In this document: piece by piece, positions 1,118-19,944 of the stretch
How positions within the stretch are numbered: the stretch's first letter is position 1
Layout: each line of letters starts with the position of its first letter
IMG/VR virus record: IMGVR_UViG_3300050133_000012
Span: 1 to 21,608 of that record
Source: a virus
Length of the DNA: 21,608 nt
Strand: one strand, 5' to 3'
Position numbers and translations under genes: made by a program
The notes under the pieces: generated by a model
Databases searched by the model: none
Told to the model about the DNA's origin: nothing
Seen by the model: the letters and a program-made list of their open reading frames with translations, nothing else

Positions 1118-1525
1118 ATGGTTACAGGTAGACCTAGAAAGTTTACTAATGCTGATGATATGTATAAGGTTGGTATGGATTATATTAATAAGATGTCTGA
1201 TGAAGGTAAACACTTGACTGTAACTGGTGTGGCTATTGCGTTAGATACTACTAGAGACGTTTTAAACGAGTATTCTAAAGGTACTTATGATACTGATTTA
1301 CAAGACTTTTCCACCCCCGTTAAAAGGCTTAAAGCGTTATGTGAGCATTATGCAGAGGAAAGATTGTTTGCTAATAACCCAACTGGAGCTATATTTGCAT
1401 TGAAGAATTATGGTTGGAAAGATAAAACAGAAGTAACAACTACAGGAGTGCAAACAGTTAAGGTTATAGATTTAAGCAGTTTCAGTGTGGAAGAGTTAAA
1501 AGAAATGTCAAAAGACGATAAATAA
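1118..1525 (+). CDS. terS: Terminase small subunit
   Basis: The 135-residue protein begins GRPRKFTNADDM, has a helix-turn-helix-like segment around residues 33-55 (LTVTGVAIALDTTRDVLNEY), and continues with the NPTGAIFALKNYGWKDKTEV motif that is very characteristic of phage DNA-packaging small subunits. It ends with DLSSFSVEELKEM, also typical of the family. It should assemble as a ring that recognises the packaging site and hands the DNA to the large subunit. GAGAGGTGAT precedes the ATG. Unusually, the large subunit does not follow directly: about 790 bp of mostly non-coding sequence and a small gene come between them. Confidence 0.88.
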   Translation: MVTGRPRKFTNADDMYKVGMDYINKMSDEGKHLTVTGVAIALDTTRDVLNEYSKGTYDTDLQDFSTPVKRLKALCEHYAEERLFANNPTGAIFALKNYGWKDKTEVTTTGVQTVKVIDLSSFSVEELKEMSKDDK

Positions 1526-1617
1526 CGAATATTGCTCAAATAACTGATGAACTTCGATTATTTGAAAGAGAATATTATACTATGAGAATGATTAAACATT
1601 CAGAAATTGATGAATAG
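1522..1617 (+). pseudogene. Orphan open frame after terS, possible gene remnant
   Basis: One base offset from the end of terS, a frame with no ATG start runs 31 codons to TAG at 1615-1617. It reads TNIAQITDELRLFEREYYTM then RMIKHSEIDE, which looks protein-like in composition. It loosely resembles the start of the large terminase downstream (ELRLFEREYYTMRMIK beside ELCRQDFYSFCKYM), which could make it a stranded N-terminal fragment. No ribosome site or normal start codon is present. It may be chance, and the resemblance is by eye only. Confidence 0.3.
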
Positions 1618-1631
1618 TAATGCATAAACAC

Positions 1632-1771
1632 TGAGAATGATGCCTTTAAAACGTTGATATAAGGCACTTTATAGGCTAGATGATAACCCAACTTCGCTAA
1701 ATATACGTTTTGCGCTAATCGGTTCTCACTAGAAATAACGGATGATTAATTGAATATAACCGGTAATGTAT
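1632..1771 (+). ncRNA. Candidate branched RNA structure or structured 3' UTR
   Basis: TGAGAA (1632-1637) can pair with TTCTCA (1723-1728). This encloses two hairpins: TGCCTT/AAGGCA (1641-1646/1661-1666), and CGC-T-AAA with TTT-T-GCG (1695-1701/1708-1714) with one mismatch. A strong intrinsic terminator follows at 1772. Together this could be a small RNA with its own terminator or a folded 3' end of the tad2-terS transcript. The pairings were found by eye; no known RNA family was recognised. Confidence 0.3.
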
Positions 1772-1803
1772 GGATTGAAGTATAAAAGCTTTAATCCTTT
1801 TTT
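1772..1803 (+). terminator. Strong intrinsic terminator downstream of terS
   Basis: GGATTGAAG (1772-1780) pairs along its whole length with CTTTAATCC (1789-1797), nine pairs including one G-T, around an 8-base loop, and six T residues follow (1798-1803). This is a textbook Rho-independent terminator on the + strand. It would end the tad2-terS transcript before the large terminase, so terL must depend on read-through or on a separate promoter. Confidence 0.8.
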
Positions 1804-1976
1804 ATCTACCTGATTACATTATATGCTCCAGGATCCTTAATAGATACTGCGATTTAGCCATTCTCATTTGCAGATTGTCGCACTTTGATTTGATGCAGAT
1901 GCACATGTTACGACGATGCTACATTATGAACGGCTATATATCAAGGGTTGTATGAGGTGGGTCCATATGTTGCGGC

Positions 1977-2032
1977 CTTATATGATAGGTCCTATATGAT
2001 GGGTGTATGTACTACCTACCCTACCTACCCTA
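1977..2032 (+). repeat. Adjacent tandem repeats (14-mer pair, then 9-mer pair)
   Basis: CTTATATGATAGGT (1977-1990) is followed directly by CCTATATGATGGGT (1991-2004), 12 of 14 bases identical. After 7 bases come two exact copies of CTACCTACC (2012-2020 and 2021-2029) plus CTA of a third. The reverse strand of the second block has four short G runs separated by TA, which could form a two-layer G-quadruplex. The GGT-rich 14-mers can also pair with the ACC-rich 9-mers. Directly repeated sites near terminase genes are reminiscent of packaging-site elements, but this is inference. Confidence 0.6.
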
Positions 2033-2121
2033 TACATGCATACAATATATAATGTTTATTGTTTTCTTTTTTATTTTCTTTTATTTGTTGTGTGTGTATG
2101 CTGCGCGTTCTACTCCTGGCA

Positions 2122-2225
2122 GGGGTGGGGGTGCTGAATAAATTGAATGAAATATCTCAAACCAATAAACCATTTGCAATCACTCACAGGATTGGGGGTG
2201 GGGCAACTTTTGCCGGCGGTACCCC
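2122..2225 (+). other. Two G-rich 9-mers and a G-rich hairpin, possible packaging site
   Basis: GGGGTGGGG occurs at 2122-2130 and again at 2195-2203, striking in AT-rich DNA. The second copy lies in a fold: GGGGTG (2195-2200) pairs with TACCCC (2220-2225), and inside it GGCAA (2202-2206) pairs with TTGCC (2210-2214). Many Gram-positive phages have short G/C-rich cohesive ends next to their terminase genes, so this is a candidate cos or pac element. G-quadruplex formation on the + strand is another possibility. No direct evidence of cleavage can be read from sequence. Confidence 0.35.
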
Positions 2226-2315
2226 TGTAGTATATACCACCATAACAAAATTTATATTTTCCACAAATGTTTTAGTCCTACAAAAAATATTTTTTATTTT
2301 TGGAAAGGTGATTAA

Positions 2316-2507
2316 ATGTCTGATAATAAAAAAGAGTTAGAACATTCTAGAGAAACTTTAAGAAAAATGTTTTTAAAAAATCCAGAATTAAAAAAAGCAT
2401 TTAAAGAAACTTTAGATGAATTAAGTAAGCCTGAAGAAATTGATAAAATGGCTAAAGGAATTTGTAAGGGCCTTAAAGCTTTATCAAATTTAAAGGTGAT
2501 TAGATGA
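2316..2507 (+). CDS. Small helical protein upstream of terL (63 aa)
   Basis: The 63-residue protein is lysine- and glutamate-rich and almost entirely helical in pattern (SRETLRKMFLKNPELKKAFK then ETLDELSKPEEIDKMAKGIC), with no membrane segment. GGAAAGGTGAT precedes the ATG, and its TGA stop overlaps the terL ATG by four bases (ATGA), so the two are translationally coupled. It is the first gene after the long terminase gap. I do not recognise the family; a small terminase accessory protein is possible from position alone. Confidence 0.7.
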   Translation: MSDNKKELEHSRETLRKMFLKNPELKKAFKETLDELSKPEEIDKMAKGICKGLKALSNLKVIR

Positions 2508-15348: not shown

Positions 15349-18300
15349 ATGACTAATTGGATAAGTAATGGTAATGGGAACGGTAGACAAAAAACTTTAT
15401 TAGAAAGACAACAAGCATCAGTCCCAAAAGTTGATTTAAAGCATTTATATGATAAACCAACTCCTGCTCCAGCTCCTATAAAAAAAAATAATAATACCCT
15501 TAGTAATCTTTTAAGTGGATTTTTACATTTTGCTAATACTCCTATTCAGCAATCACCTTTAAAAGTAAACCTAACACCTGCTCAACTTGCTCCTAAAAAT
15601 GTTTTGCCTAATATTTTGACTACTCCGCATGATACTTATAATAAAGTATTGAATAGTCAAGGTCAGTTTAATGACTCAGCTAATCAACATTCAGATTTTA
15701 TGAATAAGGTTAATGCGGCTACACAGCATGATATTAAAGCTATCCCAGCATATCGAATACAACAAGATAAGCAACAGGCTAAGGATAATGCTTTAATTAA
15801 GAATCCTTTCTTAAAAGGACTTGCAAGAACTTCACAATCGGCTGGAAACATGATGACTTTTGGAAATGGTGTTCAAAATCAAATAGACACAGGCAATAAA
15901 GCAGTTAATTTTTTAACCGATACTTTAGGTTCTGTCGGTGGTGCTATGATTAACCCAATGGGAATTGGTGATACTCTTTATTCAGGAGCTAGTAAATTTG
16001 TAGGTAATCCGTTGCAAAATGCTTTAGCTAAGAAAATAGGTACAAATACAGTAGCTAAAAGATTTATTCCTGGTGTAGTTGGTAATGCTGGAACAATGGC
16101 GGCAATCAATGCGGGACTTGAAGCTCCACAAGCTAAAAATATTAAAGATGTGGGTAAAGCTGCATTATCAGGAGCAGCACAAGGAGCATTATTTGGTAGT
16201 GCTTTAGGTGGCCTAAAAGAAGGAAATTTCCAATTAAATAAAGCGGTTAATAATTTAGGTATAGATAAGATAATTGGTAATGCAGATTTAGGAACAAGAA
16301 ATAAAATTGAGCCTAAATTTACACCTGAAACAGTTATAAAGAAAGGTAATACTAATGTTCCTGTAAAGGCTATACCTTCTATTAAACAAGCTATCACAAA
16401 GCCTGTTATTCAATATAAACCTAATGATGAATTTCTGCTAAATAATGAAGGTGGAAAGATTAATTCTATTAACGGTGATGGAACATATAACGCTACTATT
16501 TATAAAGCAGATGGAGAACATCAGGCGACCGTACAAGCTGATGGTGAGAATATGAAACAAGTATTTAAGAACACTACAAAAGATCAGTTAAATATGGATC
16601 AAAGAACAACTGAAAATGTTGGTAATCAGAAAATAAAAGCATATCAAACACTTCATCCAGAGACTTCAATTTATATCCAAAATGAAGCTAAGATTTTAAA
16701 AGGTGAGTTAGATAGTACTAAACATGGTGGGTTTGAATTAAATCAGGATGAGTTAGGTAATAATGTAGGAAGAAATACACCTAGAGTATCTACACCAACT
16801 ATTGCGAGTATTTTAGATGAGCATAAAGCTACTTATCAGGAAATTAGTGATTCTCTTGATAAAATAGCAAATGGTACAGGTAAGGATGCACTTTCTAAAA
16901 AGATTGAAATGAAGATACATGATAGATTAATTTATGGTTATCAAGATGGTCAATTTGATGTGCCAGCTAATGAAAATTATAAATCATTAATTAATAATAT
17001 AGAAAATCCTGAAAAAACAAGTTATTCAAATGTTAAAATAGAAAAACCTACACCTATTAATAATAATTTAGAAGTTTCTCAGAAAGAAATCAGACAAACT
17101 CAGAGAGATGAAGTTTCTGCAGAACCATTAAAAGATGGTGAAGTACCTACTAAGTTATCTATGAATGTTGTTTCAGGAGATAAAAAAGCAAAAACAGGAT
17201 TAATAACTAAAATTGGTAACGGATTAAATAAATTTTATACTCATGTTGTAGATAAAAATAAAGCTATTTCAGACTTTTCAAAAGATGCTAATAAGCAGGG
17301 TGGAGATAGTGAAACATATATAAAAGCTACTAATGCCGCTAATGTAAGTACAAAAGTTAGTCATATTATGGATCAAGGCTTAAGGGATAGTTCAGGTAAA
17401 AATATTATTGGTGTTTCATTCAAAAAGTTAGTTCAATCAATGCCTAAAAATAAGACAGATTTTATAAATTATTTATTACAAAATCATAATATAGACAGAA
17501 GTATTGAAGATAAAGCTATAGATAGTAATTTTTCAGCAAGTCAATCACACCAGGCAGTACTGAAAATATTACAAGATCATCCAGAGTTTGAGGCCAAAGG
17601 GAAAGAATTTACTTCATGGATTAATAAATTCATGGGTGAGTATGGTAATAAGTCAGGTTTAATTTCAGATGATTTATGGAAAAACTTGAATGAGACTTAT
17701 AAAAACTATCTTCCTACTAACAGAGATTTTACGGATATTGAGGGTGTTAATCCTGCTACTAATGGAAAGGGATTCACAGGTCAGAATATGCCTGTTAAAA
17801 AACTTTCAACTAATACATCAAGTAGAGATATAGTTGATCCTTATGAGTCTGTAATGAATACCATTAATCGTACTGTTAGAGGTGCAACTAATAATGATGT
17901 AGCTCAATCTATGCTTAAAGATATACAAGCCAATCCTGAAGGTATGAAAAAATGGGGAGAAGTTATTCCAGAAGATCAAAAAGTTAATCCTAACGTTAAT
18001 AATGTAGTTACTGTTTTAGATAAAGGACAAAAAGTTAATGTTCAAATAAACGACATAAACTTATTAAAGTCACTTGAAGGATTTCAAAAGGGTGGAGATC
18101 ATCCGTATCAAAATGCTATGAAGAAAATAACTAATCCTTATAAAGCATTAATAACTACGAAGAACCCTCTATTTACTGTAAGAAATATGGCAAGAGATTT
18201 ACCTTCAGCATATGTTAATGGTAGTGAACATAATCCGGTTAAATTCGGTATAAACTATATTAAAGCCGCTAAAGATTTATTAACTAATAACGAAACAGCT

Positions 18301-19944
18301 CAGCAATATAATTCAGTTGGGGGCGGTGGATCTAACTTTGATTTTAACGGAGATAATGCTACAAAGAGTTTAAAAAATTTAACTAAGAAAACTAATGTAT
18401 TTACTAAATTAAGTCGAGGTATTGAAAAAATAAATAATACAGTAGAGTCTACACCTAGACTTGCAGAATATAAAAACTCACTTAAAAAAGGTAATAGTAT
18501 AGATAAGGCTTTATATGATGCAAATGAGTTGACTACTAACTTTTCAAGAGGCGGAGACTTAACAAAGGCTATTGATAGTGGTGTTCCTTACTTAAATGCA
18601 AGTGTTCAAGGCTTAGATAAAATAGTAAGACAATTCAAAGACCATCTAGTAGGAACGGTAGCAAAAGGTTTAATTAGTGTTACAATACCAACAATGGTAT
18701 TAAATAACATGAATAAAGATAATCCTAATTATCAAGCTTTAGACAACAGGACAAAAGATAATTATTATTTGTTTCCTAATCCTGGGGGGAACACATTTAC
18801 TAAAATACCTAAATCACGTGAAATAGGAGTTGTATTTGGTAGTTTGGCCGAAAGATTATTAAGAGCAAATAATGGTGAAGCAAACGCATTCAAAGGTTTT
18901 GGAGGACTTAATGGAACAATAGCAACAAACTTTGCACCAACCAATCCGCTTGAAAATAATTTATTAAGTCCTATAATAAGTGGCTTGGGAGCAAATAAAG
19001 ACTTTGCAGGTAGAACAATAGTATCGCAAGCATTACAAAATAGATCACCTTCACTACAATATGATGAAACTACTTCTGAAATTGCTAAGAAGTTTGGAGA
19101 GCTAACCAATTTATCTCCTAAGAAAATAGATTATATAATTAAATCATATACTGGAGTTATAGGACAGATAGGACTTCCAGCGGCAACAAAACAGAACTAC
19201 ACAGGAGATACTAAAAGTAATTTGCTAAAACCTATTGAAACAAGTTTTACTGCGGATCCGTTATATAGCAATCAAGATGTTACGGATTTTTACGATAACT
19301 TAGATAAAGCAACTAAAGTAGCAGCAGACAACAACTTTACGAATAATGTTGATCCTTCAATAACTACAGATCAAGAATATGCTAGAAGTGCATTATCTAA
19401 AAATGCAACTAAAATGTCTGATATGGTTAAGGCAGCAACCGTAGCTTCACAAGCTGGAGACGATACAAAGGCCAGAGTAATAAGACAGCAAATGGTAGAC
19501 TTGGCGAAATCAAGTAATGCAGATATTGGAAATGAACCTAACGGAAAGATACTTGATTCTATAAGTGCAGTTTTAAAAGACAATAATGGTGATGAAGCCA
19601 AGGCATTAAGACAAAAAGTAACTGCAATTAAAGACCAAAGTAAAGCTTCTACTATTTCAGATGTAGATATGAGGGCACAATTAAGTGATCTTAGAATACA
19701 AGCTCAAAATACATCAATGCCAACCACAGAGTTTACTAAGGCTATTAGTGCTAGTTTGTTAAAAAATACTTCAAAACAAGCTACAGCTCTAAGAAAAGAA
19801 GTTACACAAATAACAACAAGTAATTTAAGTGTTAAGGAGCAACGAGACAAGTTGCAACCATTATTACAAGAAGCAGCAAATGCACCTGTTAAACGTGCAA
19901 AGGCTAGAAAGAAAAAGACCGTTTTAAATCCATTTGATAAATAA
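15349..19944 (+). CDS. Giant internal virion / ejection protein with LPD38-like region
   Basis: At 1531 residues this is the largest gene of the window. After a proline-rich start, residues about 187-290 are glycine/alanine-rich and hydrophobic (GSVGGAMINPMGIGDTLYSG, LSGAAQGALFGSALGGL), fit for membrane insertion. Residues about 935-1110 carry a pattern like the large polyvalent protein domain LPD38: KNPLFTVRNMARD at 938-950, then ELTTNFSRGG near 1060 and PYLNASVQGLDKIVRQF. The last 250 residues are helical and end in a basic tail (KRAKARKKKTVLNPFDK). Such proteins are packaged in the virion and enter the host with the DNA. AAGGAGG is the ribosome site, 13 bases after the previous stop. No lysozyme motif was seen. 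Confidence 0.72.
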   Translation: MTNWISNGNGNGRQKTLLERQQASVPKVDLKHLYDKPTPAPAPIKKNNNTLSNLLSGFLHFANTPIQQSPLKVNLTPAQLAPKNVLPNILTTPHDTYNKVLNSQGQFNDSANQHSDFMNKVNAATQHDIKAIPAYRIQQDKQQAKDNALIKNPFLKGLARTSQSAGNMMTFGNGVQNQIDTGNKAVNFLTDTLGSVGGAMINPMGIGDTLYSGASKFVGNPLQNALAKKIGTNTVAKRFIPGVVGNAGTMAAINAGLEAPQAKNIKDVGKAALSGAAQGALFGSALGGLKEGNFQLNKAVNNLGIDKIIGNADLGTRNKIEPKFTPETVIKKGNTNVPVKAIPSIKQAITKPVIQYKPNDEFLLNNEGGKINSINGDGTYNATIYKADGEHQATVQADGENMKQVFKNTTKDQLNMDQRTTENVGNQKIKAYQTLHPETSIYIQNEAKILKGELDSTKHGGFELNQDELGNNVGRNTPRVSTPTIASILDEHKATYQEISDSLDKIANGTGKDALSKKIEMKIHDRLIYGYQDGQFDVPANENYKSLINNIENPEKTSYSNVKIEKPTPINNNLEVSQKEIRQTQRDEVSAEPLKDGEVPTKLSMNVVSGDKKAKTGLITKIGNGLNKFYTHVVDKNKAISDFSKDANKQGGDSETYIKATNAANVSTKVSHIMDQGLRDSSGKNIIGVSFKKLVQSMPKNKTDFINYLLQNHNIDRSIEDKAIDSNFSASQSHQAVLKILQDHPEFEAKGKEFTSWINKFMGEYGNKSGLISDDLWKNLNETYKNYLPTNRDFTDIEGVNPATNGKGFTGQNMPVKKLSTNTSSRDIVDPYESVMNTINRTVRGATNNDVAQSMLKDIQANPEGMKKWGEVIPEDQKVNPNVNNVVTVLDKGQKVNVQINDINLLKSLEGFQKGGDHPYQNAMKKITNPYKALITTKNPLFTVRNMARDLPSAYVNGSEHNPVKFGINYIKAAKDLLTNNETAQQYNSVGGGGSNFDFNGDNATKSLKNLTKKTNVFTKLSRGIEKINNTVESTPRLAEYKNSLKKGNSIDKALYDANELTTNFSRGGDLTKAIDSGVPYLNASVQGLDKIVRQFKDHLVGTVAKGLISVTIPTMVLNNMNKDNPNYQALDNRTKDNYYLFPNPGGNTFTKIPKSREIGVVFGSLAERLLRANNGEANAFKGFGGLNGTIATNFAPTNPLENNLLSPIISGLGANKDFAGRTIVSQALQNRSPSLQYDETTSEIAKKFGELTNLSPKKIDYIIKSYTGVIGQIGLPAATKQNYTGDTKSNLLKPIETSFTADPLYSNQDVTDFYDNLDKATKVAADNNFTNNVDPSITTDQEYARSALSKNATKMSDMVKAATVASQAGDDTKARVIRQQMVDLAKSSNADIGNEPNGKILDSISAVLKDNNGDEAKALRQKVTAIKDQSKASTISDVDMRAQLSDLRIQAQNTSMPTTEFTKAISASLLKNTSKQATALRKEVTQITTSNLSVKEQRDKLQPLLQEAANAPVKRAKARKKKTVLNPFDK

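Follow-up and report, generated by a model that had tools for sequence, protein, structure and literature searches.

What occupies the 790 bp that follow the end of terS (position 1525) in a 21,608-bp record of an uncultured virus? This whole record, at its full length, is called the window here. The 790 bp are without a convincing gene and lead to a 63-aa ORF and then to terL. To our knowledge, packaging sites have seldom been recognized from sequence alone, and for most uncultured phages none has been assigned. We propose that a cis-acting DNA-packaging site of the cos or pac type most likely occupies the right half of the gap (about 2120-2312), a reading of the sequence to which we give a probability of roughly 0.55. 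The place of this candidate site, between terS and terL, is unusual. The features are as follows, with the strand where one applies; much of the block anatomy given here and below was read from the sequence by eye:

1118-1525, plus strand: terS, small terminase subunit (Pfam/PHROGs, PF16677 GP3_package)
1526-1771: AT-rich spacer with palindromic segments, directly after terS
1772-1797, plus strand: intrinsic terminator-like hairpin GGATTGAAG..CTTTAATCC, then TTTTTT, after terS
2012-2032: CTACC-type repeats in tandem, within a low-complexity zone
2120-2133: first G-run, CAGGGGTGGGGGTG, direct-repeat copy 1 (run GGGGTGGGGG at 2122-2131)
2187-2203: second G-run, CAGGATTGGGGGTGGGG, direct-repeat copy 2 and candidate core, cosN-like (run GGGGGTGGGG at 2194-2203)
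2222-2260: the segment of strongest conservation, containing TATATACCACCATAACAAAAT at 2231-2251, TATATACC at 2231-2238 and the A/T tract AAAATTTATATTTT at 2247-2260
2282-2301: second A/T tract, AAAAAATATTTTTTATTTTT; most relatives that carry the block have a similar tract downstream of their G-run
2316-2507, plus strand: 63-aa ORF, replaceable cargo, overlapping the terL start and missing in the sister contig L001
2504-4024, plus strand: terL, large terminase subunit (phrog_38; PF22530 nuclease domain)

The original prediction described a 790-bp gap without a convincing ORF between terS and the terL block, with which the coordinates and our ORF and family checks agree. The next plausible start after terS is that of the 63-aa ORF at 2316, with the RBS-like GGAAAGGTG in front, and the sole longer ORF in the gap (2059-2340, TTG start, 93 aa) has no family match in Pfam or PHROGs. 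The idea that a C-terminal remnant of TerS lies beyond 1525 was rejected, since by eye the TerS proteins of relatives stop at the same motif. The predicted GC counts (45/100 at 1941-2040; 69/140 at 2101-2240) were exact on recount, and only 15 of 21,468 intervals of 140 bp are as GC-rich as 2101-2240. The whole gap is barely richer in GC than the window (34.9% vs 32.8%); hence the compositional oddity that had been ascribed to the gap is real for its right part, with its G-runs and GC content, and does not extend to the gap overall. Elsewhere in the window, a Tad2-like protein (Thoeris anti-defence 2-like domain, PF11195) is encoded at 855-1097, directly before terS, and a 1531-aa protein with an LPD38 polyvalent-protein domain at 15349-19944.

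The two strict G-runs of the window gap, which lie in direct-repeat copies 67 bp apart, compare with 0.055 expected from dinucleotide shuffles, in which at least two runs arose in 2 of 2000 cases; the remainder of the 21.6-kb record contains none. Left of the runs, positions 1526-1810 match nothing among the fetched loci other than the 99.7% sister L001. The low-complexity zone that includes 2012-2032 matches in position the GTATGT-type repeats of L003 and L004, related phages from one sample, which by eye also have a terminator-like hairpin at the place corresponding to 1772-1797. In both contigs an ice-binding-like protein (PF11999, tested in L003) is found at the contig end upstream of terS (L003:25-474, L004:18-428). 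The terminator at 1772-1797, together with an AT-rich stretch and an RBS ahead of the next ORF, would suit a gap devoted to transcription control, in which the terS transcript would end at this hairpin and the terL operon would be driven from the right half by a late promoter or leader. We consider this unlikely, as promoter-like sites are no commoner than in shuffles (5 found, 5.7 expected) and a promoter has no need of repeated G-runs.

Relatives were collected by a TerL search that gave 66 loci in viral contigs and by a genome search that gave 3 more, and terS was located by profile in 35 of the tested loci, the window included. Two layouts occur: terS and terL either abut or overlap, or lie ~130-2700 bp apart. 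The original statement that the two genes normally abut describes about a dozen relatives and fails as a rule, many others carrying gaps; among annotated isolates with TerS or TerL relatives, the genes abut in most of those examined, the gaps of HTVC027P and HTVC023P are small and free of runs, and no isolate yielded a usable terminus. Many wide gaps share a block with the order G/C-run, usually TATATACC nearby, then A/T tracts. TATATACCACCATAACAAA is identical in the window, L003 and L004 amid an otherwise poorly alignable gap, and a comparable arrangement (a G/C-run, in many cases a TATA-type segment, then an A/T tract) was seen by eye in L005, L011, L013, L014, L016, L018, L019, L029, L044, L048 and L049. 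The runs are weak in L003, L004, L014, L016, L044 and L048. A DNA profile of the block (seeds: window, L003, L004, L005, L011) picks up L018 at the expected position, but weakly (E=0.28). The block is absent from some gap-bearing relatives (L002, L010, L022, L024, L028, L053) and from phages with abutting terS and terL. CCCCGGCCCC runs upstream of terS in three abutting phages (L032, L033, L041) were considered as a relocated block and rejected, since by eye they appear inside a minus-strand reading frame.

Across 19 gap-bearing genomes, all 11 strict G/C-runs fall inside the terS-terL gap and none elsewhere, in a count that covered 18.9 kb of gap (11% of bases) and 152 kb of other sequence. 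For runs placed at random by length, the chance of this is ~3e-11, or 2e-7 with each of the 7 loci counted once, both generous figures that assume independence and make no correction for the non-coding nature of the gaps. G/C-runs are also common, though not universal, upstream of terL in a large marine family. The A/T tract as a general terL-upstream mark was discarded after showing no clear enrichment in a marine family (6/66 vs 4.7% background). Relatives recovered with the window's TerS (L092, L097, L099, L102) likewise have G-runs after terS, and the TerL of L102 belongs to another family, phrog_2. The TerS of L014 is phrog_51-like. The block thus occurs with more than one TerS family and is not the co-evolving partner of a single one; this, like its absence from some gap-bearing relatives, counts against a packaging site.

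We further scanned viral contigs for the 16-mer GGGGTGGGGGTGCTNA, which had been picked after inspection of the window and L031. Among the 118 listed contigs with this 16-mer, 8 have TerL 115-1439 bp downstream of the element, and TerL lies just upstream of it in none of the matches listed. Of these 8, L254 duplicates the already-known contig L031; the remaining ones belong to other lineages, including the GC-rich phage L171 and the contig L158, in which the element is followed by HNH, a candidate terS (without a PHROG match) and terL. The pattern TATATACC-N4-TAACAAA, run over all viral contigs, was dropped because its 48 hits are nearly all apparently due to chance.

The gap is a cargo hotspot too. 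Where terS and terL are separated, other genes often lie between them: recombinases of the small serine type (L002, L022, L044) and of the tyrosine type (L024), a DNA methylase (L003), metallophosphoesterase-type genes (L031, and by eye L048) and, by eye, HNH genes (L002, L047). Sister L001 is >99% identical on both sides of a swap in which window positions 2313-2483, 171 bp including the 63-aa ORF, are replaced by 149 other bases including a tRNA-like element. The latter (L001:4830-4975) carries a terminator-like tail of its own, and a long insert separates its D-arm side from its T-arm side. Its Rfam tRNA match scores 34 bits, above threshold, and its match to SpF41 sRNA is weaker; ARAGORN does not call it. 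SpF41 was set aside as a family in relatives, its weak matches occurring in control genomes too. In another contig, L058:3328-3943 encodes three small ORFs in succession, each ending in ARLV, apparently via a repeated ribosome-binding/stop-start sequence.

Cargo that varies in almost every relative, as well as the exchange of 171 bp with a small ORF for 149 bp in a 99.7% sister, could mean that the gap is a non-functional insertion hotspot shaped by repeated gain and loss, with the G-runs as low-complexity debris. The block nevertheless stays while cargo and flanks change, and the confinement of strict runs to gaps argues in the same direction, so that we rate this explanation as rather unlikely. 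A replication origin or dimer-resolution site that lies near the terminase genes by chance might likewise combine G-rich and AT-rich sequence with direct repeats, and recombinase genes do lie in the same gap of L002, L022, L024 and L044. However, the block is missing from three of these four recombinase-bearing gaps, and its constant link is to the terminase genes, making such a site improbable. A non-coding element that keeps its place beside the terminase genes while the cargo and the TerS and TerL families vary is best read as a packaging site.

The original prediction had also offered a conserved structured RNA and the scar of a lost mobile element such as an intron. A covariance-model search of the window gap with Rfam, including ROOL, GOLLD and group I models, gave no match even at E<=5, nor did a search of the gaps of five relatives; the single Rfam match among relatives is the tRNA-like element adjoining the gap of L001. 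In favor of a gap-derived RNA that works through its structure, the fold of the 790-nt window gap is more stable than those of shuffles (z -3.05, or -2.6 when local composition is preserved) and surpasses 15 other window segments (z -1.1 to +2.2), and a tRNA-like RNA does lie next door in L001. Yet in the gaps of 13 relatives the mean folding z-score is ~-1.6 for the coding strand and ~-2.1 for its complement, and this missing strand preference argues against an RNA and fits DNA palindromes or terminators. In addition, the covariation term is unfavorable (+0.64 kcal/mol) in a consensus fold of the alignable post-terS segment of five relatives, and the left half of the gap matches nothing beyond L001. 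We therefore hold a functional RNA to be quite improbable. The intron scar fares no better, because no intron model matches, the terminase genes are both intact and the block shows conservation; what remains of the mobile-element idea is that relatives' gaps do hold mobile cargo (resolvases, integrase, HNH, methylase). The packaging site is thus the best supported of the three options.

Two other non-coding elements were noted after terS. The inverted repeat TGTCGTGAAAT-N4-6-ATTTCACGACA and its variants lie shortly after terS in the gaps of L010, L011, L013, L014, L016, L019, L028 and L059, thus including genomes without the G-run block; paired changes preserve its symmetry, which would suit a hairpin and a dimer-binding site alike. 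A conserved stretch, TTTTAAGAATGGGG..AAATGCCA..CACCG.TGGGTAA, is present in L003:2361-2539, L004:1467-1655 and, despite an apparently different TerS type, L049:2424-2570, with a weak likeness in L010 and L059; it is absent from the window and has no Rfam match.

How might a packaging site at this position work? TerS would bind the repeated G-run with its A/T-tract flank, which is probably bent, and TerL would then cut at or next to the G-run to start packaging. A staggered cut in the GC-rich core of an AT-rich genome could yield stable cohesive ends. The terminator after terS and the cargo before terL would fit a junction of two transcription units, which, if the site is a cos site, would be the genome-end junction as well.

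A cos site has fixed genome ends with complementary single-stranded overhangs. The block is recurrent and positionally conserved. It is non-coding and flanked by terminase genes, as expected of cos, and combines A/T tracts with a G-run core that is GC-rich as in documented examples, a common though not strictly defining trait. Its two direct G-run repeats, 67 bp apart, might conceivably correspond to the repeated TerS-binding (cosB-like) elements of a cos site. Contigs L005, L018 and L211 start at most about 15 bp from a run, as linear genome ends would; G-runs are also able to break assemblies. This contig-end signal is weak, since among the 118 listed 16-mer contigs the coding control L237, like L211, starts less than 20 bp from the 16-mer. 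Many contigs cross the block, among them the window, L001, L029 and L049. These are compatible with cos, because reads across real cos sites are often recovered and assemblers may then put cos anywhere along a contig (PMC5557969, PhageTerm authors).

It is possible, though doubtful, that the G-run and A/T-tract block between terS and terL is a widespread class of packaging site, common to phages of differing TerS and TerL families and GC content and undescribed in the part of the literature searched. If so, packaging would divide the terminase genes between the two genome ends. Such a block would be a test case for the reading of DNA by TerS, called unresolved in a review (PMC9611059). Moreover, a recognizable block that tracks the terminase genes across lineages would permit the prediction of packaging starts and genome ends.

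Among known systems, the window phage resembles P22, a headful phage, in its P22-type portal (Pfam/PHROGs) and PF16677 TerS. This resemblance counts against the gap block as a packaging site, since the 22-bp pac sequence of P22 falls within terS (PMC9611059), whereas the block lies outside terS and is G-rich. HNH-dependent cos phages have a layout matched by L158, and L003 is alike in having an HNH gene just before terS; by eye, no HNH gene was recognized beside the terminase genes of the window or in the parts of L001 that were read. Cos and pac sites are recognized by TerS, with recognition of bent DNA reported for SPP1 (PMC7672466). The cohesive ends of lambda (GGGCGGCGACCT; PMC9611059), PaP3 (GCCGGCCCCTTTCCGCGTTA; PMC7672466) and SpaA1 (TGGAGGAGG; PMC3398947) are GC-rich, and the last may be compared with TGGAGGGGGGAT in L014 and L016. 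The likeness of this candidate site to these cos sites is one of layout. In SpaA1 the genome ends lie upstream of terS, whereas the block lies between terS and terL. Like the block, the cos sites of lambda, PaP3 and the Bacillus-type SpaA1 lie beside the terminase genes and join a GC-rich core to repeats and an A/T-rich flank that possibly serve TerS.
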